Made by a program: the position numbers and the translations under genes. DNA of 64,000 nt, taken from the IMG/VR virus record IMGVR_UViG_3300025108_004223, positions 62,001 through 126,000 of that record; one strand, given 5' to 3'. The DNA is from a virus. Numbering within the stretch: position 1 is the first letter of the stretch; each line of letters opens with the position of its first letter. Positions 6,008 to 62,038 of this stretch are shown piece by piece. The notes beneath the pieces are model-generated. The model made no database searches. It saw only the letters and a program-made list of their open reading frames with translations, and was not told the origin of the DNA.

Positions 6008-6010
6008 ATT

Positions 6011-7099: not shown

Positions 7100-7184
7100 A
7101 AAAAGCCTCTCTTATTTTTTGTATAAATATATTTATCCATATTAACATAGTAGTTAATTACTAGCCTAGTTTGTATTAATACAA

Positions 7185-7213
7185 TTGACATATAGCCAAA
7201 ATTAATATATACT
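7185..7213 (+). promoter_or_regulatory. Sigma70-like promoter for the plus-strand gene pair
   Basis: TTGACA at 7185-7190, a 17-base spacer and TATACT at 7208-7213. An AAGGAGA ribosome-binding site at 7224-7230 precedes the ATG at 7240. This is the only clear plus-strand promoter seen and serves the only plus-strand genes. Confidence 0.8.
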
Positions 7214-7239
7214 TGTTGTAACTAAGGAGAATTAAAACA

Positions 7240-9085: not shown

Positions 9086-9102
9086 AAGGGTGTCTTAGAC
9101 GC

Positions 9103-10365
9103 TCAAATACCGTCCTGTATGCGTTTAAATTCAGGAGCTATACTCATTACATCGTGTCCGCGAAAGATGTCGTAGTTGTTGGTTATATCAACATACTGCT
9201 TCATTATCTCTGGATTATATACATGATCTGGATCCTTACCAAAGTTAACCATTTCCATTAAAGGTTCTTCATAATCCTCGTAATGTGGACTATTATGGAT
9301 TGATTTTAAAAACTCTAGCACTTGTTTTTCTTGCTCATCACGTAACCATTGTGGACTATGTGCCATACTGTAATAATGTGGTTCTACTAATTGATTAGTG
9401 CTCATGCCAATTCCTTTGTCATTCTTACATTGATAATTATGCATGAACTTCCAAAAGTCTACAATGTGCAATGCATTGTGTATTTGGTTGACTGTTGTTA
9501 CACGAACTTTAATACGTTTACCGGCTTTAGTATTTGAAAACTTAACCAGTTTATCAAAGTTTTTCCAAACAGAGGCCCACTTGGAAGGTGGACGTAAATA
9601 ATCATTCATGGCGCCCATGCCTTCCAAGGAGCAGTTTACAATCACTTTTTCAAACTTCCCTAATTGTTCTAACCATCTATCTTGCATATTAGTGATATTG
9701 GTATAGAAACTAAGTTCGATGTGATCAGCGTGTCCGGATTCTACTGCGAGATCTAGCAAAGTAAACATATCCTTTGCAACCGTTGGTTCCCCGCCTATAA
9801 GTTTTATTTTACGAGCTTTTCTTATCATGTCCTTAAAGCTCGCCCAGTCGATTCCAGGTTGAAGAAGTGCCTGCTTCTTGTCTGCAATGTTGGCATGCCA
9901 GTCGGGATGGTTCGCTCCGAGTCCGCTTTGTACCATTGTCGCACGTTCCACACTCACTAAGTGAGATGCTTCTTTGTTGCACATCTGACACTGTAAATTA
10001 CACAAATTGCCAAGCCTGAAATCAAATTGTAAAGGTTGTTTAACCTCCCAATCATTAACGGAAGCGTCAGCAACCACTTCGTCAATTACGTCTTCCCACA
10101 CTTCGTTTTCCCATTGTCTGCTGCTGACAATATTATTGCGTTCCAAGTGTAAACATTCACTACACTCAGGTAACCATTCACCTGCGGTCATGCGTTTACG
10201 AACATCTTTAATGTAGTCGTGGTTCCATGTTCCGTCGATGCCTAGTTTCTCTTGGTCTACTAGTTCTGTGGGTTCTTTGGCCATGCAACATAACCTATAT
10301 CGTCCGCCATTATATGTGCTATATTGAACGAATGGTAATGCACAAAAGCCGTTATCTGTTTTCAT
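9103..10365 (-). CDS. Twitch-type radical SAM protein
   Basis: A 420-residue radical SAM protein. The N-terminal block has Cys8 (FCALPFVQYS), Cys26-Cys27 (YRLCCMAKE) and CSEC, followed by SSRQWE. The cluster motif is CNLQCQMC near residue 140, then KLIGGEPTVAKD for SAM binding. The gene looks less AT-biased than its neighbours by eye, which may mean a separate origin; a composition scan would tell. Its ATG overlaps the stop of the upstream 2OG-oxygenase-like gene (ATGA). It converges on the plus-strand pair. Confidence 0.88.
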   Translation of the reverse strand: MKTDNGFCALPFVQYSTYNGGRYRLCCMAKEPTELVDQEKLGIDGTWNHDYIKDVRKRMTAGEWLPECSECLHLERNNIVSSRQWENEVWEDVIDEVVADASVNDWEVKQPLQFDFRLGNLCNLQCQMCNKEASHLVSVERATMVQSGLGANHPDWHANIADKKQALLQPGIDWASFKDMIRKARKIKLIGGEPTVAKDMFTLLDLAVESGHADHIELSFYTNITNMQDRWLEQLGKFEKVIVNCSLEGMGAMNDYLRPPSKWASVWKNFDKLVKFSNTKAGKRIKVRVTTVNQIHNALHIVDFWKFMHNYQCKNDKGIGMSTNQLVEPHYYSMAHSPQWLRDEQEKQVLEFLKSIHNSPHYEDYEEPLMEMVNFGKDPDHVYNPEIMKQYVDITNNYDIFRGHDVMSIAPEFKRIQDGI

Positions 10366-10958
10366 ATGTATCTCGTTAGTAAACTCTTTCTTACCCGATC
10401 GCCTTGCTCGGTATAATGGTAATCAGCATTTGCGTTACTCCCATATACAAGAAAAGAATTTCTTATTAGTGGTAGTTCTTTGCTTTCTAAAATATCAAAG
10501 CAGTTATCATTATTTTCATTATAGCTATTTTTATCTACATTGCAAAGTATTGTTCCATATTTTTTATAATCTATATCAGGCATGTATATATGCCATTGTA
10601 TTACTTCTTTACCAATGGCATCAGTGTGTAAATGTATATAATGTTCTGGATCATCCCATAGATAATCCGTGTAAATTCTACTTATATCATTCCATGGTCT
10701 AGTGGCTGTTAATTTATTTTTTATTGTATCATATAATTGTTTAGATGTTTCTACAAATTCTCTAAATGGTTTCCATTCTACATCAGCACTAAGACTATGA
10801 TCAGGGGGCCTACATTCAAACTGTTGAGCATGAAAATCTTTTACTAACTGAAAATAATGATCGTCACTTAAAAAATTTTCAATCCATAAATGTTCGTATG
10901 GACTAGTAAGCAATTCTGCAGAGTCTATTTTATCTATGATATAATTAAATTCCTGCAT
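10362..10958 (-). CDS. 2OG-Fe(II) oxygenase-like protein
   Basis: A 198-residue protein with a compact double-stranded beta-helix. HLHTDAIGKEVIQWHIYMPD carries an HxD pair (HTD), the distal His is in ADYHYTEQGDR, and RKSLLTRY supplies basic residues for 2-oxoglutarate binding. This is the layout of small phage prolyl-hydroxylase-like oxygenases. It is coupled by TAATG to the upstream nucleosidase and by ATGA to the downstream radical SAM gene. The substrate is not predictable. Confidence 0.7.
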   Translation of the reverse strand: MQEFNYIIDKIDSAELLTSPYEHLWIENFLSDDHYFQLVKDFHAQQFECRPPDHSLSADVEWKPFREFVETSKQLYDTIKNKLTATRPWNDISRIYTDYLWDDPEHYIHLHTDAIGKEVIQWHIYMPDIDYKKYGTILCNVDKNSYNENNDNCFDILESKELPLIRNSFLVYGSNANADYHYTEQGDRVRKSLLTRYI

Positions 10959-11506
10959 TAAACTGTTTTAAGTAAATCTAAAAATAGTTCTGCTCCATTA
11001 GACTGATTTTCTTCCCAAGTTTCTGGTGCATCTTTGTCTGCCATGTCGCTTGCATATTTAATTATCGTAGTTGGCTTGTTAAACATCTTGCCAACTTTAG
11101 CAATTGCATAACCTTCCATGTCAACTAAGTGACTTCTTAATGCAGGTGGGTCTGTTACAAAATTATCACCTGTGCTTAGAATTACTTTACTATCAGCGTT
11201 AAGTGTTATGTCACCTGCAATTTCTGTTGTTTCGTATGGTGTTAGTCCTAAATCAATAACTGGTCTACAATCCATATCACGTTGTCTTACTGCACCTACT
11301 TCTAATAGCTTGCCTGCTAAGTCTGGTGCTAATGCGCCTGCTGTTCCATAATTAATAATACGTTCACAGTCAGGTTGGTTAACAGCCAGTGTTGCTGAAA
11401 CTGTTGCATTAATTTTACCAACGCCTGTATACCATACTTTAAATTTTTCAGGGTTAAGTTTATTCTCTGGCAGTTCGCCTTTGAGTGCTACTAATACGTA
11501 TATCAT
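10958..11506 (-). CDS. MTA/SAH nucleosidase-like (phosphorylase superfamily) protein
   Basis: A 182-residue member of the nucleoside phosphorylase/nucleosidase superfamily. Family blocks are GVGKINATVSA, INYGTAGAL and VDMEGYAIAKV, the last containing the Met-Glu that binds ribose, then KYASDMADKDA with the catalytic aspartate region. The closest function by motif is 5'-methylthioadenosine/S-adenosylhomocysteine nucleosidase, which also cleaves 5'-deoxyadenosine, the by-product of radical SAM chemistry. It is shorter than the usual 230 residues. It is embedded in the radical SAM cluster, which fits a by-product removal role. The specificity is inferred, not shown. Confidence 0.75.
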   Translation of the reverse strand: MIYVLVALKGELPENKLNPEKFKVWYTGVGKINATVSATLAVNQPDCERIINYGTAGALAPDLAGKLLEVGAVRQRDMDCRPVIDLGLTPYETTEIAGDITLNADSKVILSTGDNFVTDPPALRSHLVDMEGYAIAKVGKMFNKPTTIIKYASDMADKDAPETWEENQSNGAELFLDLLKTV

Positions 11507-12180
11507 TTTATATCCTTTGTTTTATTTATTATATCTATAAATCTTCTAGCTATATCTTTTTGTTCTTTCGGCCCAGGGTGTTTGCCATCGTGGGCTCTAT
11601 CAACATAGTTACGATGACAAAGAATATGGTCTATTAAATTTATGTCAGACGGCAATGGAAGTTCTTTTTCTTCTACCCCTAAATCTTGCAACATATGATA
11701 ACTTTTTACTCCTATACTTTGACATGCATAATGTGTTAAACTTATCATCATGATAGTGTTCATAATATTGTCATATGCATCTGTAACTTTGTTATACGCT
11801 TTCTCTAATTTTTTATTAGGACCATTTTTAGTCCTACCTTGTCCTGCATCTAATGTTTCTTCAAACTCTTGTTTTAATATAACATGTCTATCAGAATAAC
11901 TCCATAAAAAACATACAATATCATTTTGCTTTATTTTAGGAAGCATGTGTTGAAATCGCCATGCTATTTCTTTATTGCCTGATCCGGGTGTGCCAAAATT
12001 ATAACATTCTTTATTGATGTTTTTAGCAACAAGTGTTGGCCATGCATACTTACTTGCATAACTTTTGTATGGATCATATGTAGGAACTCGATATGGGACC
12101 TTGGGATCAGGCCATACTTTTATATCGTCTAATGCATATCCATATGTAAGACTATCACCAAATGCATATAATTTACTCAT
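11503..12180 (-). CDS. SGNH/GDSL-family hydrolase
   Basis: A 225-residue SGNH hydrolase. YAFGDSLTYGYALDD is block I with the nucleophile serine at about residue 10, FGTPGSGNKEIAW gives the oxyanion Gly/Asn, and DGKHPGPKEQKDIARR gives the catalytic Asp-x-x-His. It is clearly related to the protein at 2374 (shared GYAL-D and WP-L-A spacing). There is no signal peptide. It directly follows a radical SAM gene with an eight-base overlap; an SGNH gene beside a radical SAM gene recurs at 45491/46177. Confidence 0.85.
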   Translation of the reverse strand: MSKLYAFGDSLTYGYALDDIKVWPDPKVPYRVPTYDPYKSYASKYAWPTLVAKNINKECYNFGTPGSGNKEIAWRFQHMLPKIKQNDIVCFLWSYSDRHVILKQEFEETLDAGQGRTKNGPNKKLEKAYNKVTDAYDNIMNTIMMISLTHYACQSIGVKSYHMLQDLGVEEKELPLPSDINLIDHILCHRNYVDRAHDGKHPGPKEQKDIARRFIDIINKTKDIK

Positions 12181-13639
12181 CTAGTAGGTCTGGATCAATT
12201 GCACCTGTTGGTGGTGTCCATGGCTCGTCTAGTAAGTAAGCCATTTCAGGGAATGTCTTGCGGAAATCTGTCCCACGCATAGCATCAAGTTTATTAATAT
12301 ATTCACGGAACTCAGGTAAACGTCTGCTCCAGTCTTCGCTACGTGCAAAACTAATCATACCACGTAAACGCTTAATACCGTAACTTGCGTTTTCCCATTG
12401 TTCTTTAGTTACTTTTCCTTTGTGCCATGTAGGAACACCTAGTTCCCAATTTTCTTTCCACCATTCAATAAATTCTTCATACTTGGCTTCTGTTTTGTCT
12501 AAGAATTCGTCTGGTAGCACTTTAACATTTAAGTGTCCTGGCCAGTATACAAAGTGATAGTTAATACCACCTGCACCAAATGGCCACATATTTGTTTTAT
12601 GTAATCCACTTTCTGCTAGTTTCCATTTAAGGAAATCTGGAATGTAATGAATGTTAAGAGCGTTAACGGCACATGCAATTGTAACTTCTACATTATTAGT
12701 TGTTTCAGTGTCTAAACGTTTAAACATTGCAAGTTGGTGATCCCATTCACTTGGGTAACGAATATAGTCATTCATAGCACCAATGCTGTCAATACTGTAG
12801 TGGAAACGCACTTTCTTAAAGTGTGACCATAACTCTAACAATCTATCCGGTAGTTCAATTCCATTTGAATTATAACGAACTTCCATTTCACTAGCATAAC
12901 CCATTTCGATTACTTTGGCTAGGATTTCATAGTGTTCTTCAATAACTGTAGACTCACCACCTGCAAAGTATAGCTGACGCATGTATGGAATTTGTGCATA
13001 AAATTGATCCCAAAACTCTGGATTGTTTTTGTGCCAGTTATAACTTGCACCAAACTCTTTACCTTTGTTTTCCCAAATCATAGTTTGTTTAAGACTCTCA
13101 TTGGTAATCTGTGGATATAATTTGTTCCAGTCTTTTACCCAGCCTGAGCTATCATGTGGACTACACATAACGCACCCCAACTGACATTTCGTTCCCATAC
13201 GGATATCAATATATCTAAGTTTACTATCTGTTGATCCATCTTCGTATGTTTCCTTTACTAGCTCATCTACATCAATACCATTGTTCATCCAGTATTGTGT
13301 TTCCCATTGACGTTTTGATCTGTGGCCTGCCGCTTCTTCTTTAAAGCACTTTAAACAACTTGCAGGCTTCTCACCATCAAGCATCATCTTACGAACACTT
13401 CGCATATATGTGTTATTCCATGCTGTATTTAGATCTGTTGTGTTTAGGTTAGCAGGCTTGCCATCTTCTGTTTTAACAATACCTACTCGTCCACCATGTT
13501 CTTTATCGTTTGTAGCACCAACACTACTTGCATTGGCTGTGCAACATACTCGCATACTCCCATCTGGTCTTGTGCTTAAATGTATCCATGGTAGTATACA
13601 AAATGTTTCTGATGGGGTGGGTAGGTCGTGTTCGCTCAT
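12173..13639 (-). CDS. Twitch-type radical SAM protein
   Basis: The longest of the family here, 488 residues. The N-terminal block has Cys14 (FCILPWIHLS), a PDGSMRVCC segment (Cys32-Cys33), CLKC and GHRSKRQWE. The radical SAM motif is KCQLGCVMC near residue 155, followed by YFAGGESTVIEEH, the SAM-binding GGE. The extra length is an insertion after the CC pair (VGATNDKEHGGR and following) and a longer middle region. A CGGAG ribosome-binding site overlaps the end of the upstream sulfotransferase-like gene, and it overlaps the SGNH gene by eight bases. Confidence 0.89.
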   Translation of the reverse strand: MSEHDLPTPSETFCILPWIHLSTRPDGSMRVCCTANASSVGATNDKEHGGRVGIVKTEDGKPANLNTTDLNTAWNNTYMRSVRKMMLDGEKPASCLKCFKEEAAGHRSKRQWETQYWMNNGIDVDELVKETYEDGSTDSKLRYIDIRMGTKCQLGCVMCSPHDSSGWVKDWNKLYPQITNESLKQTMIWENKGKEFGASYNWHKNNPEFWDQFYAQIPYMRQLYFAGGESTVIEEHYEILAKVIEMGYASEMEVRYNSNGIELPDRLLELWSHFKKVRFHYSIDSIGAMNDYIRYPSEWDHQLAMFKRLDTETTNNVEVTIACAVNALNIHYIPDFLKWKLAESGLHKTNMWPFGAGGINYHFVYWPGHLNVKVLPDEFLDKTEAKYEEFIEWWKENWELGVPTWHKGKVTKEQWENASYGIKRLRGMISFARSEDWSRRLPEFREYINKLDAMRGTDFRKTFPEMAYLLDEPWTPPTGAIDPDLLDE

Positions 13640-26355: not shown

Positions 26356-27252
26356 TTATGTGCCCCATGCGTTTCCGAAGAGACTGATGTGGAGTCTTGG
26401 GGTAAAACGCCATCCCCTTTCCATACAGATTTCTGCGACTTCCTGGACGTTAAGATTATATTCTTCACTGCGACCACCCAACGGCATAAGATACACAGGG
26501 CATTCCAACCCAGCTTTGCGATATGCCTTGACAGCTCTATCAACATCAGCAATATCCTCGTTGTCAGCAACAACAAATTTAAGATAGATATCGCTGTTAT
26601 CCACACGACTGTAGTTGAAAGCAACATCAGGCTTGATAGCATCTTCCCAAGATTCTCCCGATACTGTGAGCTTGGGTGAACAACTCCATGTGACTTTAAT
26701 TCTGTCACTGTTGTGGAGATAGTCGAATAAATCGTCATGTAAATGTTGTGTAGTGTTTGTTTCAAATGTAACATTTTTTAAGTCCTTCATGCGTGGATGT
26801 TCAAATAGTTCTACATAAAGTCGTTGCCACGCTAACAACGGCTCACCACCTGTCATAATTAAATGAATGTCTTGTCCATTGTCGCAAGTCCATTTGCCTT
26901 CAGGAGTAAGACTTAGTAGATGATTTACTACTTCGTCAACTTCTGCAAGTTTATTAAAATTTTTAAATTCTGGATAGATACTTGCATAAGTATCACAACC
27001 TGTATGTATAATAGGCAAGTCTGTAAATTGTGTCACGGTATCTGCAATACCACTATCAATTAATCCTTTAACTTCATCATTATAACGATTACCTGCATCA
27101 TGCTTTTCAGCTCTGCTTGGTTCGTTTCTTGGTAACCCAAAATTCATACAACGAAAATTGCAACCAAATGTGCGTAAAAATACGCTAGGAACTCCTACGT
27201 ATTGTCCTTCACCTTGCACACTATAAAATGCTTCTGAATATCTAAGTTTCAT
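26356..27252 (-). CDS. queE: 7-carboxy-7-deazaguanine synthase (QueE), phage variant
   Basis: A 298-residue radical SAM enzyme matching QueE, which converts 6-carboxytetrahydropterin to 7-carboxy-7-deazaguanine. The N-terminus YSEAFYSVQGEGQYVGVPSV is the QueE signature, MTGGEPLLAW binds SAM, and it ends in RLHISLFGNAWGT like other QueEs. The cluster motif is split: Cys31 and Cys35 in GCNFRCMNFG are normal, but the third cysteine is probably Cys86 in HTGCDTY, 50 residues later. It belongs with FolE, QueD and the DpdA-like gene at 36.6-42.6 kb. The start overlaps the MazG-like gene by 11 bases. Confidence 0.88.
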   Translation of the reverse strand: MKLRYSEAFYSVQGEGQYVGVPSVFLRTFGCNFRCMNFGLPRNEPSRAEKHDAGNRYNDEVKGLIDSGIADTVTQFTDLPIIHTGCDTYASIYPEFKNFNKLAEVDEVVNHLLSLTPEGKWTCDNGQDIHLIMTGGEPLLAWQRLYVELFEHPRMKDLKNVTFETNTTQHLHDDLFDYLHNSDRIKVTWSCSPKLTVSGESWEDAIKPDVAFNYSRVDNSDIYLKFVVADNEDIADVDRAVKAYRKAGLECPVYLMPLGGRSEEYNLNVQEVAEICMERGWRFTPRLHISLFGNAWGT

Positions 27253-36577: not shown

Positions 36578-37276
36578 CTACTTAGCTGCAAAATCTGATT
36601 GGAGTTTAATGTTATCCATAAACTCTTCTTTAGTTGCAGGGTCAGTTTTAAATGCACCCTTAAGAACTGTAGTTTGTGTTAAACTACTGTGTGCCATAAT
36701 GCCTCTGTTCTCACAACATCCGTGTGTTGCTTGAATGTAAACACCTACATCATCTGACTTGGTTACTTTCATAATCTCACGTGAAATATCCATTGCAAGT
36801 TCTTCTTGTAGTGTGCCACGCCTTGCACACCATTGTGCGATACGTGTATATTTAGATAAGCCAATTAGTGTGTCAGCGGCAATAATGCCAATGTATGCTA
36901 CACCTGTTACTGGCTGATGGTGATGTGAACAAACACTTTTAAGTTCACTTCGCACAACTAACATACCATCATAACGTTCGTTAGTTACGTTGTCTGGTTC
37001 ATTAGGAAATGCTGTTGCCGGTGGTGCTGTTTCATAACGCCCTGCCATTAATTCATTGTAATACATTTTAGCTAAACGCTTGCCTGTATCCATGCTGTTA
37101 GGATCTGTTTTCCTATCAATAACTAATGTATCTAATACACTTTCAAAGGCAAGTGTTGCCTCTTCAATTAGTTCTTCTCTATCACCATTTTGTAATACTT
37201 CACTAATGTTGTCACCCGCCCAATAGCGAATGCCTGCTTCTTCTAATTTGTTTCTAATTTGTTTTGACTTACTCAT
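36578..37276 (-). CDS. folE: GTP cyclohydrolase I
   Basis: A 232-residue GTP cyclohydrolase I, which makes dihydroneopterin triphosphate from GTP. Zinc and catalytic residues are in SVCSHHHQPV and THGCCENRG, and substrate-contacting segments GLSKYTRIAQWCARRG and MAHSSLTQTT are present. In a genome with QueD-, QueE- and DpdA-like genes, the product most likely feeds 7-deazaguanine synthesis for DNA modification; tetrahydrofolate supply is the alternative. It is followed by the FTR1-like gene. Confidence 0.93.
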   Translation of the reverse strand: MSKSKQIRNKLEEAGIRYWAGDNISEVLQNGDREELIEEATLAFESVLDTLVIDRKTDPNSMDTGKRLAKMYYNELMAGRYETAPPATAFPNEPDNVTNERYDGMLVVRSELKSVCSHHHQPVTGVAYIGIIAADTLIGLSKYTRIAQWCARRGTLQEELAMDISREIMKVTKSDDVGVYIQATHGCCENRGIMAHSSLTQTTVLKGAFKTDPATKEEFMDNIKLQSDFAAK

Positions 37277-45494: not shown

Positions 45495-46180
45495 GTGTCA
45501 CTTGCCAATTGTTTACTAAGAAATTCTTCTGCATAGTATCTACTTGCACTTGTCCTTGGATGCCAATTGTCTGGCATAAACTCTTGATCGGTTTTGATAC
45601 ACCAGTCGACTAACGGTTCATCAATATAGTTTACATTGTTCTTGTCGAACACATCTGTAATTTGTTCCCACGTTTTTTCTGGGGCGTGTGGTATTATACC
45701 TGTCCAACCTCTAAATGCATATACTGTTACGCCTGCATTTGCTAATAGACATAACTTACTTACTACTCTTGTTAACAGTATGATATGATTATGGTGTTCG
45801 TCATAGTGCATACCATGGCTTAGGCTGGAACCCCATAGCATATACTGTTTGCCAAAGTATCCTTCCCATAGAAGACTTCGTTGGTCTGGAAGTATATTGC
45901 TCAGCTCCCTTAACTTCGTTTTGTGGTCTATCAACTCTTTCGAAACTCCTGATGAGTATATTCCACCGCCTCTTTCCATACCAGTCATTTGATATACTAC
46001 AGTTAAATCTTTTGTTGTGTTGTGATATAAGTATTCGTCTATACAGTCTAGCAGTTGTTGATTGCCGCCGCCACCGAACCCATAGTTTGTATGTATATCG
46101 AATTGTCCAGCTTGATTGCATGTATACGGCCACGAGTCAATTGGAGCTAAACTACATCCTAGAGTCAGTAACTTCTTCAT
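45491..46180 (-). CDS. SGNH-like hydrolase
   Basis: A 229-residue protein with SGNH block I (LLTLGCSLAPIDSW), a Gly-rich second block (NYGFGGGGNQQLLD) and a late DNWHPRTSASRYYAEEF holding the D-x-x-H pair. More divergent than the two on the left. It follows a SPASM radical SAM gene with an ATGA overlap, the same neighbour pairing as at 11503/12173. Confidence 0.72.
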   Translation of the reverse strand: MKKLLTLGCSLAPIDSWPYTCNQAGQFDIHTNYGFGGGGNQQLLDCIDEYLYHNTTKDLTVVYQMTGMERGGGIYSSGVSKELIDHKTKLRELSNILPDQRSLLWEGYFGKQYMLWGSSLSHGMHYDEHHNHIILLTRVVSKLCLLANAGVTVYAFRGWTGIIPHAPEKTWEQITDVFDKNNVNYIDEPLVDWCIKTDQEFMPDNWHPRTSASRYYAEEFLSKQLASDT

Positions 46181-47268
46181 GTAAACTGCTCCGCAAATGG
46201 ATCAAACTCTGTGCCACATTTCATACTGCAAACACCTAGCTTACCTTCTTCAATGCTTTTCTTATTCCAACTGTTTTGTATGTCTTGCATAATGCCTGTT
46301 TTGAATACGCCTTCGACTCCATGTATCTTTGCATCAAGAGCCTCTTTTCCGCCAACACCATCTATGAAATCCCATATCTGTTCTACCTTTGGATCTTTGT
46401 GCCACCACTTATACATACGACCAGCTGTCCAACAACAAGGCAACACAAGGCCTTCTGCTGTAATAAAGATGTTAGGATCTTTGCCTGCTACTTTACATTT
46501 AATATCACAACTATCATAATAGTTTTTCATACCACCATATGTTTTTTCAATCTCTTTTTGTTTCAGTAGTGCTAGGTTTTGATACTCTGCTTTCTTTGGC
46601 TTAGCCAAGTTCTGCATTGTAGCACCTTTGCGATTCTTTGCTTGGTGTGTTTCTTTAGACTCACTGTTAGCATTAATAAAGCGTCCAGTTTTCTTTTTCA
46701 TAAACTTCTCAACACCCCATTGCTTTGCTAATTGTTCAGCACGTTCTACATCACATTCACTATGTTCAAATATTAAATAGTCCCAACGAGCTCTGCCACC
46801 TGCTTCAATAAATGCTCGCATGTTGCGTTCTACTTTATCCCATTGCACACCTTGTCTATACAAATGGTTTGTGTTTTCTAATCCATCAACACTAAAGATA
46901 ACTGCACCGTTCTTGCCAATAGTCTTAGCAAGTTCTCGCCACCATGTAACATCTCTCGCACCTGCATTTGTATTCATACTTAACCATATGTTTTCATTCA
47001 TTGCACGTGTGTAATCAAATATTTCTAATGTATCTCTAGCACTAATTGGGTCACCTAAGTTACCACACATATATAATGTGTTTAGTTGCTGTAAGAAGTC
47101 TGGATCAAATATATTAATACAATCATCTAAACTTAGTTCTTGTAAGTTATTCTTAATGTGCTGATTGACTGCACCACCGTTCTCATTACGGTCACACATA
47201 GGACAACTTGCATTACAACGTTGTGTAACTTCTAAGTGAACTGTGTTTATATCTTCATACTTATACAT
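46177..47268 (-). CDS. Radical SAM/SPASM domain protein
   Basis: A 363-residue radical SAM protein. The cluster motif is RCNASCPMC (Cys18, Cys22, Cys25), with GNLGDP in the SAM-binding region and VIFSVDGLENTNHLYR in the barrel. The SPASM part has CDIKC, then GLVLPCCWTAGRM and a final CSMKCGTEFDPF. A basic insertion (about residues 190-240) is unique to this paralogue. It is coupled to the upstream gene by an eight-base overlap and to the SGNH gene downstream. The substrate is unknown. Confidence 0.9.
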   Translation of the reverse strand: MYKYEDINTVHLEVTQRCNASCPMCDRNENGGAVNQHIKNNLQELSLDDCINIFDPDFLQQLNTLYMCGNLGDPISARDTLEIFDYTRAMNENIWLSMNTNAGARDVTWWRELAKTIGKNGAVIFSVDGLENTNHLYRQGVQWDKVERNMRAFIEAGGRARWDYLIFEHSECDVERAEQLAKQWGVEKFMKKKTGRFINANSESKETHQAKNRKGATMQNLAKPKKAEYQNLALLKQKEIEKTYGGMKNYYDSCDIKCKVAGKDPNIFITAEGLVLPCCWTAGRMYKWWHKDPKVEQIWDFIDGVGGKEALDAKIHGVEGVFKTGIMQDIQNSWNKKSIEEGKLGVCSMKCGTEFDPFAEQFT

Positions 47269-47878: not shown

Positions 47879-48478
47879 TTATATTTCGTCCTTGCTTAGA
47901 TTATATCTTAAATTGATAGTTTTTAATTGTAAGTCTGTGTATTCGGTTATAGCTTCAGCTACTGTATTTACACTTAACGACGGAAAATCTAAGAATAACA
48001 GTAACTCTTTAATTGTTTCTTTGTTAATATCAATAAACAAATCTGAATAGTTTATATCTAATACATTCACTCCTTGTTGCCTAAGTATTTCACTGAAGGT
48101 ATGGTGATGTTTATAATGTTCATTAGTGTTTTCATCGCTTACAAATCTACTCTCTGCTACTTGTTCTATTGTATCTTCTACATCATCGTTTGTCTTTAAC
48201 AGCCATAGAATGTAGATATACCAATCAATATCTGGATGTATTATAACTATATTTGTATCTTGGTGCTCTTGTGCAAGTTCTTTAAACCTCTTTATACTGT
48301 AATCTTTTCTTTGAGTTGCTCCTGTTGTTAACTCAGCTATATGAGTTATATCTAACAAATTCCTATTACCATCATATTTGTGTTCAATATTGTTACTTAA
48401 CTTATTTGTATTACCAGTAAAAATGCCTGCTAGGAAATGCCCGCTTGCACCTGCTGGAAATACTATTAAGTTTTTCAT
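47879..48478 (-). CDS. Possible sulfotransferase-like P-loop protein
   Basis: A 199-residue protein beginning MKNLIVFPAGASGHFLAGIF, a phosphate-binding-loop-like start, with IVIIHPDIDWYIYILW in the middle. This fits the sulfotransferase superfamily loosely. I chose the ATG at 48478, which overlaps the upstream stop (ATGA). Acceptor and activity are unknown. Confidence 0.55.
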   Translation of the reverse strand: MKNLIVFPAGASGHFLAGIFTGNTNKLSNNIEHKYDGNRNLLDITHIAELTTGATQRKDYSIKRFKELAQEHQDTNIVIIHPDIDWYIYILWLLKTNDDVEDTIEQVAESRFVSDENTNEHYKHHHTFSEILRQQGVNVLDINYSDLFIDINKETIKELLLFLDFPSLSVNTVAEAITEYTDLQLKTINLRYNLSKDEI

Positions 48479-48693
48479 CCTAGCCACATGTATACCAAGC
48501 CAGGTATAATAATAAAAAACTGTGGCAAGAAATTTAGTATGAGAGCTTTCTCATTTTGTTTCCAGCCTACATATATCCAACCAGCGGCTCCTATCATTTG
48601 TAAGAAACTATTCCACGGTGTCCACCCTTGCACGTGGAGTATCATTGCTATAAGTATTATAATAGCACTGCCATACTTAATGTAACTAATCAT
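48475..48693 (-). CDS. Small membrane protein (72 aa)
   Basis: A 72-residue protein with two to three membrane segments (GSAIIILIAMILHV, LQMIGAAGWIYVGW, FFIIIPGLVYMWLG). It resembles the membrane protein at 25814 in layout. It overlaps the upstream stop and is coupled by ATGA to the next gene. The function is unknown. Confidence 0.68.
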   Translation of the reverse strand: MISYIKYGSAIIILIAMILHVQGWTPWNSFLQMIGAAGWIYVGWKQNEKALILNFLPQFFIIIPGLVYMWLG

Positions 48694-48931
48694 CAAGTAT
48701 CAACTTTATATCTTTGCCGGGTCCTATCTCGCTTGGAAAGTCTCCGTGTTCATTTATGTAATATTTTATTACTGCTTTATACCAAAGATTACTGTTGTGT
48801 CTTGCAACTGCATTAAACTTATGTATACTATCATTGTCAGCAGGCATAGTGCATATTGCTCTAGCGGCTTCTTTTTGTAATTGTCTGGGTGTGAAGCCAT
48901 CCATAATAGCGTCCCATAGTTCATCATCCAT
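48686..48931 (-). CDS. Hypothetical protein (81 aa)
   Basis: An 81-residue mostly helical protein (MDDELWDAIMDGFTPRQLQK, then WYKAVIKYYINEHGDFP). No family recognised. It overlaps both neighbours by eight bases, so it is part of a compact four-gene run of small proteins. Confidence 0.62.
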   Translation of the reverse strand: MDDELWDAIMDGFTPRQLQKEAARAICTMPADNDSIHKFNAVARHNSNLWYKAVIKYYINEHGDFPSEIGPGKDIKLILDD

Positions 48932-52684: not shown

Positions 52685-55063
52685 TCATTCCATTCCCTCA
52701 TATTGTTCATCTACCATTTTATTCCACTTTAATTCACTTGCAAGACCATTTCTCAAACCTCGTTGGTTCTCTGGAATCTTTTTATCTAAGTATATTCCTT
52801 CTGAATTGTAAAAGTCTACTCCAGGTATTGCCATTTCTCCATAAGCATTAAAGCCTGGAACATAGTTAATTAATGCTGCAATAATCTGTTGTAAAGCCTG
52901 TTGTGCCTCAAGTGATGTTGCTTTGCCTTGATCTTCTGCAAGTTTTTTTAGTTTTTCTTTGATGATCTCTTTCATCTTCTTGCGTTTAGCTGCTTCCTTT
53001 TCTTTCTTGGATAGCTTCTTAACTTTCTTAGGCTTTGAGTCAGCTACTTTTTCTTCCTTTGTATCTTCCGTTGTTTCTTCCTCTGATTCATTTGAATTCT
53101 CTTCTTCGCTTTCATCTTCATCGGTAGCTTCCTCATTGCTTTCTTCTTCAGTAGTTTCTTCTTCGTCTGTGCTTTCTTCCTCAGTTGATTCCTCTTCGGT
53201 CTCTTCTGTAGCCTCATCCTCTGTGCTTTCTTCAGCTTCTTCCTCAGGTTCAGTTTCTTCTACTGCTTCTTCGGTTGACTCTTCTTCTGTGGAATTTCCT
53301 TCAGATACTTCATCGGAACTTGTATCTTCTGTTCCCCCTTCAGTATCGTTCTCATCTGTCCCGGTATCTCCATCCATTGACTGTTCCACATCACTACCGG
53401 ACTCTTCTTGTTCTTGTGTCGCATCTGGTATCTCCAATTCCATTTCAATTTGCTGTTCTACTTCAGCTTCAATTTGTTCTACTTCACCTAATGGTTCTGG
53501 TGCTGGCATAGTGTTGCCTGTATCCATTGTTCCCACATCTGGTATTTCAACTGTTGGTAATTCTATTACTACCTCGGGTTCTGGTTCAGGCATTGGCTCC
53601 GGCATAGGCTCTGGAGCAGGTATTAAGTTTATAGTTGGTAAGTCTGGTGTTGCAATTACATTATCAACAATACTATCACCTGTTCCTGTTCCAATATCAG
53701 TTGGGTCAGTTTCTATGATTGGTGCAACATAACCTGGGCACTGTGAATCATACTGTGAGTTGTAACTACATTGCTGATTTAAGTATGCTGTATCGTATCC
53801 TGCACAACCCGGACTATGCAATGCATCTAAGGTGCATTGCTGTTCAAAGTATGCTTCTTCATATCCTGGGCATGATTCATCATGTGTTGAATCTAATGCA
53901 CATTGTTGTGTTAAGTAAGCGGCAGCATAACCTGGACATGCACTATTATATAATGTGTCAATGCTACATTGCTGTGTTAGGTAAGCAGCGGCATATCCAT
54001 CACATCCACTGTCATAAAGTGGGTCTGCACTACATTGTTGAGTGTAATAAGCAGCGGCATATCCATCACATCCACTGTCATAAAGTGGGTCTGCACTACA
54101 TTGTTGATCATAGTAAGCACTTGCATAGCCTGGGCACCCACTATCGTATAATGGATCTGCACTACATTGTGCATTATAATTTGCTGTTGCATAGCCTGGA
54201 CAACCTGGATCGTATAAGGCATTAGCGGCACAATTTGTATCGTATTGCCATGTCGCATAGGCTGTTGCATAACCTGGGCAACTAGGATCATAAAGGGCTG
54301 TATCATTACATGGGTTAGCTCTATAAGTAAACCAAGTTTTTAAATCATTTATAATAGGACCGTAGTAACCATCCCAATTACCTTTGTCGTATCCACTTAT
54401 TCTAAAACGCACATCACCAACTGCATTTGGTGTGCGTATTGTTCCTACTTTATCTATGTGATTGTAAACTTCTATATTGTCTTCGTGTATCTGCCAAACA
54501 ACCGAACCTTCTTGAACTTCATTATCACTATGAGCGTTACTTGACGTCCAATCATACCATGTATCCATAGTCCAAGTTTTAGTTTCAACTACGTTTCCAC
54601 TGCTATCTGTTACTTCAACAATTACAATTAACTCATCCCAATGCGTATCATCAGTAATCTCACCTGTTGAGAGGTTTACTCTATCTTCAATATCAACACT
54701 ACAAAATTTGCCAGGTTCATTGAAGCAATGTATATATTTCCATTGATAGTGAACTTTGTCTATGCTAACGCCTGTGCCTTCTAGTGCTTGATTGATTGCA
54801 TATGATACTGCAAATGTGTTAACACACTCACCAAAACGTAGGCTTTCTCCATTCGAATATACAAATGCCGCGGAGGTGCCAGATGGACATCCATATTGTG
54901 GACTACCAATGGTTCCGTCATCCAAGTCTATGTCGGTTGGATTAGTTGTTGTTGGGTTAGTTGGAACAGCGGTATCTGTTGCTAATGCTGTGCTACTAAA
55001 TGAGTAACAAATACAAAAGAATACTAAAACCGATAGTCTTTTCAACAATCTTTTGAGTATCAT
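52685..55063 (-). CDS. Giant repeat protein of a late-type module
   Basis: A 792-residue protein: a signal-like hydrophobic N-terminus (LSVLVFFCICYSF), a globular N-terminal domain, nine tandem repeats of about 22 residues (C-x-x-D-x-L-Y-D-x-x-C-x-G-Y-x-x-A-Y), a Pro/Glu linker, a roughly 110-residue very acidic Glu/Ser/Thr region, a basic helical patch (KKVKKLSKKEKEAAKRKK) and a C-terminal domain with YVPGFNAYGEMAIPGVDF. The C-x-G-Y repeat style is one I recall from marine myovirus proteins. The ATG at 55063 has GAGGAGAA upstream; an apparent TTG start 18 bases earlier is rejected. Probably virion- or envelope-related. Confidence 0.85.
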   Translation of the reverse strand: MILKRLLKRLSVLVFFCICYSFSSTALATDTAVPTNPTTTNPTDIDLDDGTIGSPQYGCPSGTSAAFVYSNGESLRFGECVNTFAVSYAINQALEGTGVSIDKVHYQWKYIHCFNEPGKFCSVDIEDRVNLSTGEITDDTHWDELIVIVEVTDSSGNVVETKTWTMDTWYDWTSSNAHSDNEVQEGSVVWQIHEDNIEVYNHIDKVGTIRTPNAVGDVRFRISGYDKGNWDGYYGPIINDLKTWFTYRANPCNDTALYDPSCPGYATAYATWQYDTNCAANALYDPGCPGYATANYNAQCSADPLYDSGCPGYASAYYDQQCSADPLYDSGCDGYAAAYYTQQCSADPLYDSGCDGYAAAYLTQQCSIDTLYNSACPGYAAAYLTQQCALDSTHDESCPGYEEAYFEQQCTLDALHSPGCAGYDTAYLNQQCSYNSQYDSQCPGYVAPIIETDPTDIGTGTGDSIVDNVIATPDLPTINLIPAPEPMPEPMPEPEPEVVIELPTVEIPDVGTMDTGNTMPAPEPLGEVEQIEAEVEQQIEMELEIPDATQEQEESGSDVEQSMDGDTGTDENDTEGGTEDTSSDEVSEGNSTEEESTEEAVEETEPEEEAEESTEDEATEETEEESTEEESTDEEETTEEESNEEATDEDESEEENSNESEEETTEDTKEEKVADSKPKKVKKLSKKEKEAAKRKKMKEIIKEKLKKLAEDQGKATSLEAQQALQQIIAALINYVPGFNAYGEMAIPGVDFYNSEGIYLDKKIPENQRGLRNGLASELKWNKMVDEQYEGME
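53725..54318 (-). repeat. Nine tandem 66-bp coding repeats (C-x-G-Y motif)
   Basis: Nine in-frame units of 22 codons, each with a paired-cysteine pattern, C...LYD..C.GY...Y..QQ. Adjacent units 4 and 5 are nearly identical, with the later ones diverged, as expected from tandem duplication. They lie inside the 792-residue protein and are not CRISPR. Confidence 0.9.
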
Positions 55064-55550
55064 CCTGACGTTTCTCCTCAATTATGTTTTCTGGTCTACG
55101 CTCCGGAGAAGCTTCCCAACTTGCTTGGGCCTCTTCACCAATTTTACCAAAATACGGACAAGGAGTTCCTGCCATTTCCATTGCATTAAATACACGTTCG
55201 TCTTGACACATAATACTAACGGCTGCAACCTTCATGCCCATGTCGTAGATTGTTTTGGCTAGTTTTAGCCTTTCACAATTCAAGTCACGAACAGTTTTGC
55301 CTCCACTAATACCAAGTATTTGTGTTTGAACTGCACCTGAAATTCCTACTGTGCATAAGTCACTGTTGCTACTGTTTATGCTTGGTGATATTGCACTAGG
55401 CGGTGGGCTTTTAACTGTTGTTTTAGTGTCACCTTTTGTTGTGACTGTGCTGTTACTAGTTGATTCTGTTACAATAGGATCTGCAGCGAGTGCCGATGTC
55501 ATTCCAAAAACTATTAGCATGACTATTGTAAATATTTTTATGTTTCTCAT
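54996..55550 (-). CDS. Conserved secreted phage protein (184 aa)
   Basis: A 184-residue protein with a signal peptide (MRNIKIFTIVMLIVFGMTSA), a Thr/Ser linker, and a cysteine-containing core (NSDLCTVGISGAVQTQILGI, then RDLNCERLKLAKTIYDMGMK, CQDERVF and AGTPCPYFGKIGEEA). I recall similar proteins in marine T4-like phages; function unknown. The ATG at 55550 has AAGGAA upstream. A TATAAATA late promoter lies at 55623-55630. It overlaps the giant repeat gene by 68 bases. Confidence 0.78.
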   Translation of the reverse strand: MRNIKIFTIVMLIVFGMTSALAADPIVTESTSNSTVTTKGDTKTTVKSPPPSAISPSINSSNSDLCTVGISGAVQTQILGISGGKTVRDLNCERLKLAKTIYDMGMKVAAVSIMCQDERVFNAMEMAGTPCPYFGKIGEEAQASWEASPERRPENIIEEKRQDDTQKIVEKTIGFSILLYLLLI

Positions 55551-55622
55551 CTGCATTTCCTTCTTAGTTAAGTTCGAAATCTTCATAGATTATTGTATTA
55601 CGAAAACATCTATTTCGTGTAG

Positions 55623-55630
55623 TATTTATA
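55623..55630 (-). promoter_or_regulatory. T4-type late promoter (TATAAATA)
   Basis: On the minus strand an exact T4 late promoter box TATAAATA, about 65 bases upstream of the 54996-55550 start. A small hairpin (ACGAAA with TTTCGT) lies in the leader. It would drive the late-type module down to 51919 through the gp45-dependent late system. Confidence 0.72.
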
Positions 55631-55670: not shown

Positions 55671-55699
55671 ATAGAAAAGGGCCCCCGAAGAGGCCCTTT
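55671..55699 (-). terminator. Rho-independent terminator after the TctC-like gene
   Basis: An 8-bp GC-rich stem (55676-55683 with 55692-55699) with an eight-base loop, followed on the minus strand by TTTTCT. It lies just past the substrate-binding protein gene and separates the transporter from the late-type module. Confidence 0.85.
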
Positions 55700-55736: not shown

Positions 55737-56810
55737 TTATTGAGGGATAACATCTTCTTTGAAGATTGCATCTTTACCTGTAAACTTCAAGAAGTCAACT
55801 AGGTTTGCATATGTATCACGCTCGATTTGGTTACGCAAAATGTCTAGTGCGCCTTTCATATCGTCTCCGATAATCCAGTCATACTTTCCAGTTTTTACAT
55901 AAATCTTTGCCATTGACTCTGGGTCTGCTGCCATGGCACGGAATGCCGCAACAAGAGCCGGAGTATTTGGGTTGTCTTTTTGTGTCCATAATGCTTTTTG
56001 CATCACGTCACGGAAGTTACGAACTAGTTCGAAAGCATCCCAGAATTCACCTGATGGTGCTTCGCCCCATCTTTGTTCAAACACTTCGTGAATTGATTGG
56101 TTTGGCCAGTTTGGATCTGCATCAATTTCACCTGTTTCCAAGTTGAATACACCTTGTGAGAACCATACTTTTGAGTAAGGTGCATCATTATAATACTTGT
56201 TATAAGCCGCAGTTGACTCACGTGTTACGTTAAGCTCACCACGTTGGTAAGACAATCTACGCTCGCCACCTGACATACCTTTGATGTATTTGTATTGAGT
56301 GTTAAAGATTTCTTTACCTTGCTCCATAGTTAGACCTGGTCCACCTTTAAGTAAGATGTGTGCCATCATGTCTGGATTCATACCTGAACCAGCTGAGAAC
56401 AAAATCTCATCTGTGTATGGGTCAATTGACTTTTGGTGACCGTTAATAATAGTCAAGTTCATCATACCAATTGGATCATATTCATAGTAGTTATAGTCTA
56501 CGTCATCTACTAGATAACTTACACCATTACCACCGTGTGATACCATTACAACTTTTGGATCTGATTGCAAGTCGTTGTGGAACTTGTTGAATCCAGGAAT
56601 ATCATTTGCACCTGGAATGTTAATGATCTTGATTTTTTCACCTAAGTGCTTCTCAAGTTCTTTGGCAACAATTGCTGTCCATACAGACGTTCCTGATCCA
56701 GGCTTCTGTGGGACAACAAATGTGTAGTCTGCTACTGCTGGTGCAGAGTATCCTACTAGTAATGACATTGCAAGTGCTAATGCCATAAAAGGTTTCTTTA
56801 GTTGTTTCAT
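55737..56810 (-). CDS. tctC: TctC/Bug-family substrate-binding protein
   Basis: A 357-residue periplasmic protein with a clear signal peptide (MKQLKKPFMALALAMSLLVG, cleavage near VAD). The mature start FVVPQKPGSGTSVWTAIVA matches the Bug/TctC signature (P-x-x-P-G-G-x-x-D-x-x-A-R-x-x), and KIINIPGANDIPGFNKF follows. Bug proteins bind tricarboxylates, dicarboxylates or other organic acids and deliver them to TctA. It is directly downstream of TctA and ends at a strong terminator. The ligand is unknown. Confidence 0.88.
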   Translation of the reverse strand: MKQLKKPFMALALAMSLLVGYSAPAVADYTFVVPQKPGSGTSVWTAIVAKELEKHLGEKIKIINIPGANDIPGFNKFHNDLQSDPKVVMVSHGGNGVSYLVDDVDYNYYEYDPIGMMNLTIINGHQKSIDPYTDEILFSAGSGMNPDMMAHILLKGGPGLTMEQGKEIFNTQYKYIKGMSGGERRLSYQRGELNVTRESTAAYNKYYNDAPYSKVWFSQGVFNLETGEIDADPNWPNQSIHEVFEQRWGEAPSGEFWDAFELVRNFRDVMQKALWTQKDNPNTPALVAAFRAMAADPESMAKIYVKTGKYDWIIGDDMKGALDILRNQIERDTYANLVDFLKFTGKDAIFKEDVIPQ

Positions 56811-56825
56811 ATTTTCTCCTTTGAT

Positions 56826-58289
56826 TTATACGAAATCTATTTTAGCTTTGTTAAAAAACAATCCCCATATCGCGGCTGCTACCGCTAATGCAAGGAAGGT
56901 TGGTGGGAGCCAGCTTGTAAACAAGTCACTCCATTCATACAGCCCCGAAAATTGTAAATAACTTTTCTCAATTCTTGCACTGAGAATAAATCCAATTAAA
57001 AAACTTACACGGCTAAACTTTAGATATTTTAGAACTACACCTACAGCACAACAGATTGCAAACATATAATAGTCTTCAATGAGTCCTGTGTATTGTGTGC
57101 ATGACCATATTAGCGATGCTAGTATTGGCCAAAAATACCATCTAAAAGGAACGTTGGTAATCTTAACTGCATACTTGATAAACAAATAAGCAATTGGTAA
57201 GATTATAATAAGACTTGCTAGGTAACTACTCAGCAAGTGATCAAAGAACACTCCATCTGCTAATACACTTGGAGTTCCTAGTTCTAGGCCTACATACATA
57301 AGTAAACCCATAACAATCACTTCAAATGGTGCACCTGGAATGCCAAACAAAATGGTAGGAACATAACTGGTAGCCTTTTGAGCATTGTTGGCGCCTTCGC
57401 AACCAATAACACCTCTAACATTACCTTTTCCAATTCCATAAGCATCTTTATCGGCATGTTTGCCTGCGGCTGCAACTGTTTGACTATATGCAAACCAATC
57501 TGCAATGTTGCCGCCAATACCTGGAATTAATCCAATAAAGCCTCCAATAAAGCCTCCTCGTAATCCATCCCATTTATATTTCCAACTGTCTTTGATACCT
57601 TGTATTAGTTGTGATTTAATTAGTGCATTGTCTAGAAAGATTTTTTCAGCTTTCATTCTGTATGCACTTAGTAGTTCTGGAAATGCTAATACGCCTGCCA
57701 TAACAGGAATCATTTGTATTCCATCACCTAAGTAATCCCAACCCATTGTCCAACGTGAACTTGCTGTTTCAGGATCCATTCCAATATGTCCGACCATAAA
57801 GCCGGCAATTAATGCAATGAAGCCTCTTACCCAATACTTACTGCTAATAAACACAACACATGTCATAGCAAATATTAGGAAAGTAAACATCTCTCGAATG
57901 CCAAAATATAACACAATCTTGGTATACCATGGTAAGAAAAGGAATACAAGTAAACCCCATATCAATCCATTTATCCAACTTGTGCTAATTGCGGCACTTA
58001 AAGCTCTTGCAGCCTCGCCACGCCGACTCATGGGAAATCCATCAATCATTGTTGCGGCGGCTCCGCCTGCCCCTGGCACATTCATAACAACACCGCAAAA
58101 GCTGTCGCCAATACTCGAAGTCACAACAATTGCTGTTGTGAATACAACTAACATGTAGGGATCTTCAAAGTATCCAACGAATGCGTATACGGCTATTAGT
58201 CCTGTTGTAGCACCTGCTACCGGAATTAAGCCTACAAAAAATCCATAGACAACACCCAATAACAGGACACCAATATATGTTTCCAACAT
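56826..58289 (-). CDS. tctA: TctA-like tripartite tricarboxylate transporter large subunit
   Basis: A 487-residue integral membrane protein of the TctA family with about 12 membrane segments. Signature blocks are VPGAGGAAATMIDGFPMSRR (G-x-x-G-D-G-x-P motif), FIGLIPGIGGNIADW and ILFGIPGAPFEVIVM. TctA carries the transport channel and works with TctC and a small TctB; no separate TctB is seen here. The promoter region at 58290-58434 has AT-rich near-late elements (GATAAATA). The gene is coupled with the binding protein downstream. A phage-borne TTT system is unusual. Confidence 0.9.
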   Translation of the reverse strand: MLETYIGVLLLGVVYGFFVGLIPVAGATTGLIAVYAFVGYFEDPYMLVVFTTAIVVTSSIGDSFCGVVMNVPGAGGAAATMIDGFPMSRRGEAARALSAAISTSWINGLIWGLLVFLFLPWYTKIVLYFGIREMFTFLIFAMTCVVFISSKYWVRGFIALIAGFMVGHIGMDPETASSRWTMGWDYLGDGIQMIPVMAGVLAFPELLSAYRMKAEKIFLDNALIKSQLIQGIKDSWKYKWDGLRGGFIGGFIGLIPGIGGNIADWFAYSQTVAAAGKHADKDAYGIGKGNVRGVIGCEGANNAQKATSYVPTILFGIPGAPFEVIVMGLLMYVGLELGTPSVLADGVFFDHLLSSYLASLIIILPIAYLFIKYAVKITNVPFRWYFWPILASLIWSCTQYTGLIEDYYMFAICCAVGVVLKYLKFSRVSFLIGFILSARIEKSYLQFSGLYEWSDLFTSWLPPTFLALAVAAAIWGLFFNKAKIDFV

Positions 58290-58434
58290 ATGGTTCCTTA
58301 TTCTTCTAAAGTTTTGAGGGTATTACACCAATGAACCTGTTGCACTCGCATGTTGGTAATCGTGTAAAGTGATAACAAAGTAATTATAAATCTATAATTA
58401 TTGTTATATCTATTTATCTTCGTTTTGTATATAG

Positions 58435-59135: not shown

Positions 59136-59164
59136 ATTATACTACTTTTGTGTTCTGTTGTCAA
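59136..59164 (-). promoter_or_regulatory. Consensus sigma70 promoter
   Basis: On the minus strand TTGACA (59164-59159), a 17-base spacer and TATAAT (59141-59136). It overlaps the end of the upstream 76-residue gene and leads into the methyltransferase gene. Confidence 0.8.
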
Positions 59165-60478: not shown

Positions 60479-62038
60479 CTATTCTCCTATACTAGACTGT
60501 TCGCTAGTTACCACTTCCACACTATATTTCTCTGTCCAACGCTCTGCGTCATCCTCGGTGTCCACCATTGGCTCACCTTTAATGTTTAAACTAGTATTTA
60601 ACAACATAGGACAACCTGTAGCTTCGTGCCACTTGTCCAATAACTTATATAAACCTGGGTGTTGTAATCGTGTTACAGTTTGCACTCGGCTTGTTCCATC
60701 TATGTGAGTAATTGCTGGAAATGAGTTTGGATCCTTTGTTCTTCCAACAAATTGCATAAATGGACTACTAGTTACACCTTCTGGCATATCAAAGTAATCA
60801 TGTAAACATTCTTCTTTAATAACTGGAGCAAAAGGCCTAAATGCTTGCCTTTGCTTTACTGTATTTACTTGATCTTGCATATTTTCACCTCTAGGGTCAG
60901 CTAACAGGCTTCTATTACCCAATGCACGTGGTCCAAACTCTGCACAACCGTTGGCAACACCAACCATTCCGCTTTCTTGTATAACTTTTAATGCTTTATT
61001 AACAGGATAGTTGCCTCTAATAGCATTTCCAAGATATGGACTATCAAATTCAATAAACTTATTGGTGTGTGCTAATACACAACCAACACTGCTACCTGCA
61101 TCACCTGGATTAGGCATAATCCAAACATTTTTAAAACGATTAAATGCTATACTGTTTGCTACACAATTTAATGCACACCCTCCCATTAATACAATGTTAT
61201 CACTGTCAACAAGTTTCTTTGTTTGTTTAATTAAATGAGTAAAAATATATTCATATACTGCTTGAGTGCCTGCGGCTATGTCGGCATAGTCTTGAACTGT
61301 GTTTAGTTCTGGTGCCCATTGCTTGCAACCTCTGTGTAAGTTTTGTTTAAAACGAATACGTGGACTGTTTTGATCTAATGGATAAAAGAAATCATCAAAT
61401 ATACGTTTCTTATACTTGTCTGGGTCACCAACTGCGGCCCATCCCATTAGAATATATTCATCTTCGTTTGGTTTTAGTCCAATACGCTGTGTCATTGCAC
61501 TATACCATAAGCCTATGCTGTGTGGATACTTCTGGCTAAACTTACGCTTTAGTTTAGTTCCATGTCCTTCCCATACTGTGAGTGTTTCAAACTCACCTAT
61601 ACTATCTACCACCAATACTGCGGCTTCTCTGTATGGACTTGTGTAATAACCTGCGGCTGCATGACTATGATGATGTCTAGTGTTGTGCCACGATGGTGTG
61701 CGATTAAAGTCTACAGGAACCTCATTATAAAAATCTAATAAACTGCGAGGACGTATTCCAAACTCATATAGTGATGTAACTGGAGATGGCTTTGTTAATG
61801 CTGTGCGATATTGTCCTGCACGTAGTTGACGTAAACGTTTAAGCCATTGTGTTTCATACCAATGAACATGTTCAGGGTTACCAAACTCTAATGCTTGATT
61901 GATTAATGTTTGATTTAAATGCTTATCATTCTTTATTCCACTGCTACGTTCAGCATGAGCGGCAAACTTTAGTTCGTCGTTGTCAAACACTGCCAATGAG
62001 GCATCGTGTGCGTTCGCTGTTATTCCCCATCTAATCAT
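60479..62038 (-). CDS. NodU/TobZ-family O-carbamoyltransferase
   Basis: A 519-residue carbamoyltransferase of the NodU/CmcH family, which moves a carbamoyl group from carbamoyl phosphate to a hydroxyl of a sugar or antibiotic. Visible family blocks are RWGITANAHDASLAVF, HHHSHAAAGYY near residue 120 with metal-binding histidines, VLMGGCALNCVANS, EFGPRALGNRSLLADPR and MLLNTSLNIKGEPMV. Genes of this family are known in marine phages. It is coupled (ATGA) to the SPASM radical SAM gene. The acceptor is unknown. Confidence 0.92.
   Translation of the reverse strand: MIRWGITANAHDASLAVFDNDELKFAAHAERSSGIKNDKHLNQTLINQALEFGNPEHVHWYETQWLKRLRQLRAGQYRTALTKPSPVTSLYEFGIRPRSLLDFYNEVPVDFNRTPSWHNTRHHHSHAAAGYYTSPYREAAVLVVDSIGEFETLTVWEGHGTKLKRKFSQKYPHSIGLWYSAMTQRIGLKPNEDEYILMGWAAVGDPDKYKKRIFDDFFYPLDQNSPRIRFKQNLHRGCKQWAPELNTVQDYADIAAGTQAVYEYIFTHLIKQTKKLVDSDNIVLMGGCALNCVANSIAFNRFKNVWIMPNPGDAGSSVGCVLAHTNKFIEFDSPYLGNAIRGNYPVNKALKVIQESGMVGVANGCAEFGPRALGNRSLLADPRGENMQDQVNTVKQRQAFRPFAPVIKEECLHDYFDMPEGVTSSPFMQFVGRTKDPNSFPAITHIDGTSRVQTVTRLQHPGLYKLLDKWHEATGCPMLLNTSLNIKGEPMVDTEDDAERWTEKYSVEVVTSEQSSIGE

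Follow-up and report, generated by a model that had tools for sequence, protein, structure and literature searches.

Characterised tripartite tricarboxylate transporter (TTT) systems include TctB. The closest described of them, TctCBA (TC 2.A.80; Salmonella TctCBA, Bordetella BctCBA and R. palustris MatBAC), has a TctA permease beside a solute-binding protein (SBP) of the Bug/TctC fold, as does the phage locus presented here, which differs from it in having no detectable TctB, in the gene order (TctA-SBP vs tctC-tctB-tctA), in a TctA sharing some 25-32% identity with those ordinarily found in bacteria, in an SBP falling under the Pfam TctC threshold and in being phage-borne. The closest cellular TctAs, which reach about 246 bits at best with the viral profile, are long alphaproteobacterial proteins (about 660-715 aa) which are paired with TctC much as in the phage and possess a C-terminal domain of about 170 aa, probably TctB-like, that the viral TctA is devoid of; rare TctAB fusions are known (PMC5812351). 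The TTT family has been reviewed (PMC5812351), and its substrates are so varied, including citrate, malate, terephthalate, quinolinate (binders, PMC11452294) and alginate oligosaccharides (PMC13390454), that a tricarboxylate is not to be assumed for any given member.

As for viruses, tctA was listed as a putative auxiliary metabolic gene on SUP05 viral contigs from a domain match only (eLife 2014, PMC4164917), the listing being repeated in a 2019 review, and a gene for tricarboxylate transport was reported on a myovirus scaffold, in the neighbourhood of norB/nirK (ISME J 2020, PMC8115048). Both reports place a TctA-type gene on marine viral contigs, as is the case here, and the text consulted mentions no SBP pair, clade, TctB loss or distribution. 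Bug-type SBPs occur in phages too, namely the Bug/TTT-domain proteins of uncultured Caudovirales in BFVD (e.g. A0A6J5T247), which are 12-14% identical to our SBP in structural alignment and belong to another SBP subfamily. No prior description of the TctA-SBP pair, of the viral clade or of the absence of TctB turned up in the papers searched, which come from outside subscription journals and preprint servers, so the conserved pair, the clade and the missing TctB appear to be undescribed.

The gene pair and its proteins

The window, that is the whole stretch of DNA analysed, contains 64,000 nucleotides and is part of a 126,762-bp IMG/VR record (IMGVR_UViG_3300025108_004223). A sequence-only reading of it had described a TctA-like channel and a Bug/TctC binding protein with a signal peptide as a compact pair ended by a strong terminator. 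Both open reading frames are indeed present (Table 1), the intergenic gap between them is only 15 nt, and the terminator, consisting of a 10-bp stem, a UUCG loop and a U-run, is as stable as had been suggested, even though it was not picked up by the pattern scan.

Table 1 Features of the TctA-SBP locus and related elements, in window coordinates
Feature	Position	Strand	Basis
TctA-family membrane permease, 487 aa	56826..58289	-	PF01970, hydropathy count, dN/dS
Bug/TctC-type periplasmic solute-binding protein (SBP), 357 aa	55737..56810	-	AF2 model, BugD match
Putative Sec signal peptide of SBP, residues 1-27, AVA followed by D	56730..56810	-	Read by eye
AAGGAA, ribosome-binding-site-like, 5' of TctA	58294..58299	-	From sequence
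AAGGAG ribosome-binding site, 5' of SBP gene	56816..56821	-	From sequence
Class I SAM methyltransferase-like protein, 224 aa	58435..59109	-	Methyltransf_23 E 3.8e-4, under family cut-off
Candidate sigma-70 promoter TTGACA-17-TATAAT, 5' of the methyltransferase-TctA-SBP run	59136..59164	-	Consensus 12/12
Intrinsic terminator closing the unit	55676..55699	-	-19.9 kcal/mol, z -4.2, shuffles all less stable
T4-late-promoter-like TATAAATA, 5' of next gene (54996-55586), beyond the unit	55623..55630	-	Motif match
DUF6552 small membrane protein, 73 aa, 2-3 hydrophobic segments	48475..48696	-	PF20189 E 2.6e-9
81-88 aa family gene, adjoins local DUF6552 copy	48686-48931		

The identification of the TctA-like channel is borne out by a match to PF01970 with an E-value of 1.1e-85 and 288 bits (cut-off 28.9), which covers the full profile, and the hydropathy count gives about 11 hydrophobic segments. 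The AF2 model of this protein was poor (pLDDT 47) and was discarded.

Searches of Pfam, including PF03401, NCBIfam and PHROG gave nothing significant for the binding protein, so its earlier TctC label was a guess. The GenBank phage set likewise contains no match to it. Its N-terminus, MKQLKKPFMALALAMSLLVGYSAPAVA followed by D, is typical of a Sec signal peptide as judged by eye, in agreement with the signal peptide proposed from the sequence. The AF2 model, built from 21 viral relatives, has a mean pLDDT of 87.4 and resembles BugD with a Foldseek E-value of 4.8e-10 and Z of 21.8 across 272 residues. The top 11 solved structures, BugD, Bug27, MatC, AdpC and TphC among them, are all of the Bug/TctC type (Z 18.4-21.8), and the next fold class, the phosphite/phosphonate binders, starts only from Z 13.8, which turns the guess into a fold assignment. 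With the viral SBP profile, the TctC proteins adjoining the closest cellular TctAs give matches of up to 102 bits. One of them (locus L480, 101.6 bits) is itself a PF03401 member with an E-value of 6e-10, and these matches link the window protein with the family at the level of sequence besides fold. On its predicted structure, then, the window protein is a Bug/TctC-type SBP.

The T4-late-promoter-like motif lying beyond the unit is a weak reading because such motifs are not enriched in the window, 5 being found vs 9.65 expected. Some other genes of the window were noticed as well. Positions 52685-55081 code for a secreted-looking protein of 798 aa without a Pfam match, in which CxxDPLYDSGCxGYAxAY units recur and a long stretch is acidic and rich in E/T/S, and a NodU/Nol-like carbamoyltransferase is encoded at 60479-62038. 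Radical SAM proteins in one phage record are located at window positions 9103-10365, 12173-13639 and 46177-47268, and at L100:13161-14282.

Viral origin, distribution and descent of the pair

The record encodes a T4-type DNA polymerase (phrog_262, 6e-194) and a clamp loader, as well as dihydrofolate reductase, thymidylate synthase, GTP cyclohydrolase and a QueE-like protein. The genes for the QueE-like radical SAM protein and GTP cyclohydrolase (window positions 26356-27252 and 36578-37276) suggest 7-deazaguanine modification of the phage DNA. The gp23 capsid gene is absent from the record, the latter being a fragment; it was found with E-values of 1e-82 to 1e-100 on five other TctA-bearing contigs, namely G005 (192 kb), G013 (300 kb), G014 (151 kb), G062 (383 kb) and G071 (182 kb), the first of which has a TctA 83% identical to that of the window. 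A sixth TctA-bearing contig, G065, shows a short partial gp23 match. The sizes of the five gp23 contigs (151-383 kb) point to large T4-like phages.

The placement of the pair in a phage, as claimed from the sequence, is thus upheld by relatives holding the pair and a T4-like gp23 on one contig and by the phage replication genes of the record itself, and the objection that the contig might be a bacterial chimera fails for the same reasons. What could be said for an assembly chimera or bacterial contamination is that two of the nearest genomic-contig matches sit in contigs of metagenome-assembled genomes (MAGs), 7.9 and 15.7 kb in length. However, the 7.9-kb 'Pelagibacter' contig contains phage neighbour families, so that contamination there went the opposite way, the pair recurs on dozens of viral contigs independent of one another, several of which carry gp23, and the viral TctAs group in a clade of their own; this explanation is refuted for the relatives and extremely improbable. 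Seven GenBank phage records matching TctA with 28-33% identity were not accepted as true phage, as they are probably bacterial DNA, most of them being either short contigs without annotation or a 691-kb Salmonella scaffold; the one inspected is an unverified and unannotated 17-kb clone.

A scan with the window TctA found 28 viral loci with 72-100% identity, and in all of those with enough sequence the SBP gene lies directly 3' of TctA. In profile scans of IMG/VR, TctA was matched by 320 viral stretches and SBP by 288; 80 stretches per gene were kept, leaving 106 loci after removal of near-duplicates. Both genes are present in 99 of these non-redundant loci, and in 97 TctA is located 5' of SBP on the same strand, with a gap of no more than 35 nt in 81 of the 97 and many start/stop overlaps. 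Among the seven loci with one gene, a contig end adjoins in five (L026, L224, L240, L042 and L173) and very probably accounts for L133 too, while L041 appears to have no TctA upstream. The methyltransferase-like family is the commonest neighbour, occurring in 79 of the 106 loci and 46 times directly 5' of TctA. One viral contig, L247, carries the TctA-SBP pair twice in tandem (5968-11108).

Both genes are under purifying selection. Between the window and L011, the NG86 method gave dN 0.070 and dS 1.32 for TctA and dN 0.046 and dS 0.41 for SBP; dS is near saturation in distant pairs. Compared with several relatives, dN/dS of the two genes is well under 1, and where dS is unsaturated it is about 0.05-0.15. 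Their distance matrices correlate with r of 0.65, a value reached in none of 999 permutations and expected for co-inherited partners. As befits auxiliary metabolic genes, the pair is carried by a genuine viral genome and codes for transport homologues kept by selection.

In a tree of 58 TctAs, for which the bacterial sequences were drawn by peptide patterns with incomplete sampling, 40 viral proteins are placed on one long branch (length 2.77, support 100/100), into which two metagenome-bin sequences, L043 and L044, also fall. Judging from these sequences, the viral TctAs are a clade far from the sampled cellular ones, and the pair is no oddity of one phage: as a module it is widespread among viruses and has a TctA clade to itself. 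Besides the pair, L043 (CAJQJC010000036.1, 7,878 bp, binned as Candidatus Pelagibacter) contains three of the neighbour families seen in the phages, and it most likely represents phage DNA that was wrongly binned with a host. L044 (WJMG01000074.1), from an Omnitrophota MAG, is bacterial-looking, has a phage-type TctA and SBP without TctB, and was the sole match among 193 Omnitrophota genomes; given a bacterial-looking contig, alone in its phylum, with the same TctB-less pair, transfer in either direction between phage and this lineage is likely.

When 385 alphaproteobacterial genomes were searched with the TctA profile, the best match apart from the phage-like contig reached 246 bits vs 505 for the latter, and the best cellular matches were the long proteins mentioned above. 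In two of these that were aligned, the additional C-terminal residues, lacking in the viral TctA and in L044 alike, end in a TctB-like motif (FPAGLLQ vs LPAGPLE). The domain gives no match to the Pfam TctB model, so naming it TctB-like is a motif reading by eye.

The missing TctB and candidate small membrane proteins

No TctB had been visible to the sequence-only reading, and this holds for the whole record and for 24 related ones: profile PF07331 gave no match in any of the 25, with TctB being poorly conserved and the records being fragments. A TctB profile built from 11 bacterial loci likewise found nothing in any fetched viral locus. The 'tripartite' label used earlier is inaccurate, since TctA and SBP make up only two of the canonical three subunits, and with TctB undetected the system is filed here as a two-component TTT variant instead of a canonical tripartite one. 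A TctB hidden as a fusion was rejected, the viral TctA stopping at the end of TctA proper, and so were the open reading frames inserted between TctA and SBP, which code for an oxygenase-like protein, methyltransferases, beta-barrels and others.

It might be supposed that the phage TctA and SBP use the TctB of the host or compete for host TTT subunits, thereby retuning the host system. In favour of this, TctA-family genes were found in 137 of the 385 sampled alphaproteobacterial genomes and, according to an eye-guided search, TctB adjoins 48 of 53 bacterial TctA genes. Nevertheless, the low identity of the viral TctA to bacterial ones makes specific pairing with a host subunit improbable, small TRAP-type subunits being known to form specific complexes (PMC5812351), and we regard this explanation as unlikely.

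Two unrelated families of small membrane proteins are candidate leads for a replacement subunit: c5, of about 73 aa (DUF6552, PF20189), and c17, of about 117 aa, which has four hydrophobic segments, an internal duplication and no known family match. The system would be three-component after all if one or the other replaced TctB as a docking or stabilising subunit. In favour of this, c17 is the first gene after an SBP gene at 14 of the 49 unique c17 loci, and the corresponding count for c5 is 12 of 57, frequently with a stop-start overlap. The two families interchange in the same slots, including the one after the 81-88 aa gene, and seem to exclude each other: none of 27 long c5 contigs carries c17, and among 23 close TctA-bearing records there are 11 with c5, 8 with c17 and none with both except for one weak c5 match, although this exclusivity is inflated by near-identical records. 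A DNA-polymerase-based sampling of co-occurrence comprised 9 long contigs in total. Moreover, c17 is found directly behind orphan canonical Bug SBPs (PF03401 E 8e-20) on viral contigs without detectable TctA (L273, L274, L275 and L266).

Against such a role, both families were rejected as TctB homologues, with hhalign probabilities of 0.1-0.2%, and about half of their occurrences are away from SBP. The c5 gene was also rejected as TTT-specific, as in other phages it comes after a gene for a DnaB-like helicase and in one bacterium it belongs to a choline-oxidation-like operon. Holins, too, look like small membrane proteins that exclude each other in one slot. The c5 copy of the window is 7 kb from the pair, which leaves its link to the latter uncertain. 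Taken as a whole, replacement of TctB by c17 or c5 is possible but doubtful.

Proposed function

We consider it likely that the two genes encode a secondary importer of a virus lineage, which depends on a binding protein. In this reading the secreted SBP would capture a small solute in the host periplasm, most likely an organic anion to judge from the TTT family, and hand it to TctA, which would move it inward on an ion gradient. Both genes would be co-translated from a host-type promoter and end at the terminator, presumably early or midway in infection, and the phage would benefit from carbon entry being kept up in a cell whose own transporter synthesis is off. Cells infected by these large T4-like aquatic phages would thus probably take up a small organic acid via a virus-specific transporter. 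We infer from the TTT family that TctA and SBP cooperate and that they bring an anion into the cell, and likewise the energy source, the time of action and the advantage to the phage.

Some of the loci are consistent with nutrient import. Four of them (L215, L218, L225 and L241) have a gene for a small secreted beta-barrel between TctA and SBP, with a Porin_4/OMP_b-brl match in L218 and a weak one in L225. In L267 (IMGVR_UViG_3300022200_000019, 212,917 bp) a methyltransferase gene, the pair and c17 stand in a row, and after c17 the region 4492-8350 contains genes for a ferritin/RNR-fold-like protein, a glutamine-amidotransferase-like protein, an ammonium transporter (PF00909, 1.4e-87) and a PstS-like protein, so that carbon, nitrogen and phosphorus uptake genes are together in one phage. 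The beta-barrel inserts and the AmtB- and PstS-like neighbours both fit an importer. A bolder proposal, which we offer as speculative, is that the viral proteins represent a virus-lineage class of TctA in which TctB is replaced by DUF6552 or the 117-aa family with four transmembrane segments, sometimes with an outer-membrane channel added; if true, this would be a phage-made solute route across both host membranes.

The pair might also serve something other than feeding, namely superinfection exclusion, sensing or the scavenging of a precursor such as quinolinate for NAD synthesis. Bug proteins have sensing roles in bacteria, and the record contains a ribose-phosphate pyrophosphokinase-like gene. 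Quinolinate is bound by Bug27 and Bug69 (PMC11452294). A full-length conserved permease beside the SBP nonetheless favours transport, and a role of this kind seems quite improbable.

Phage genes for the uptake of phosphate and nitrogen are well known. If phages widely carry a conserved importer of organic solutes, such uptake genes would come to include carbon, and infected heterotrophs may gain substrate through viral and not host proteins. Having no TctB, the pair is also a natural experiment on a long-standing question of the TTT family, namely the role of this subunit and whether TctA and SBP alone are sufficient.
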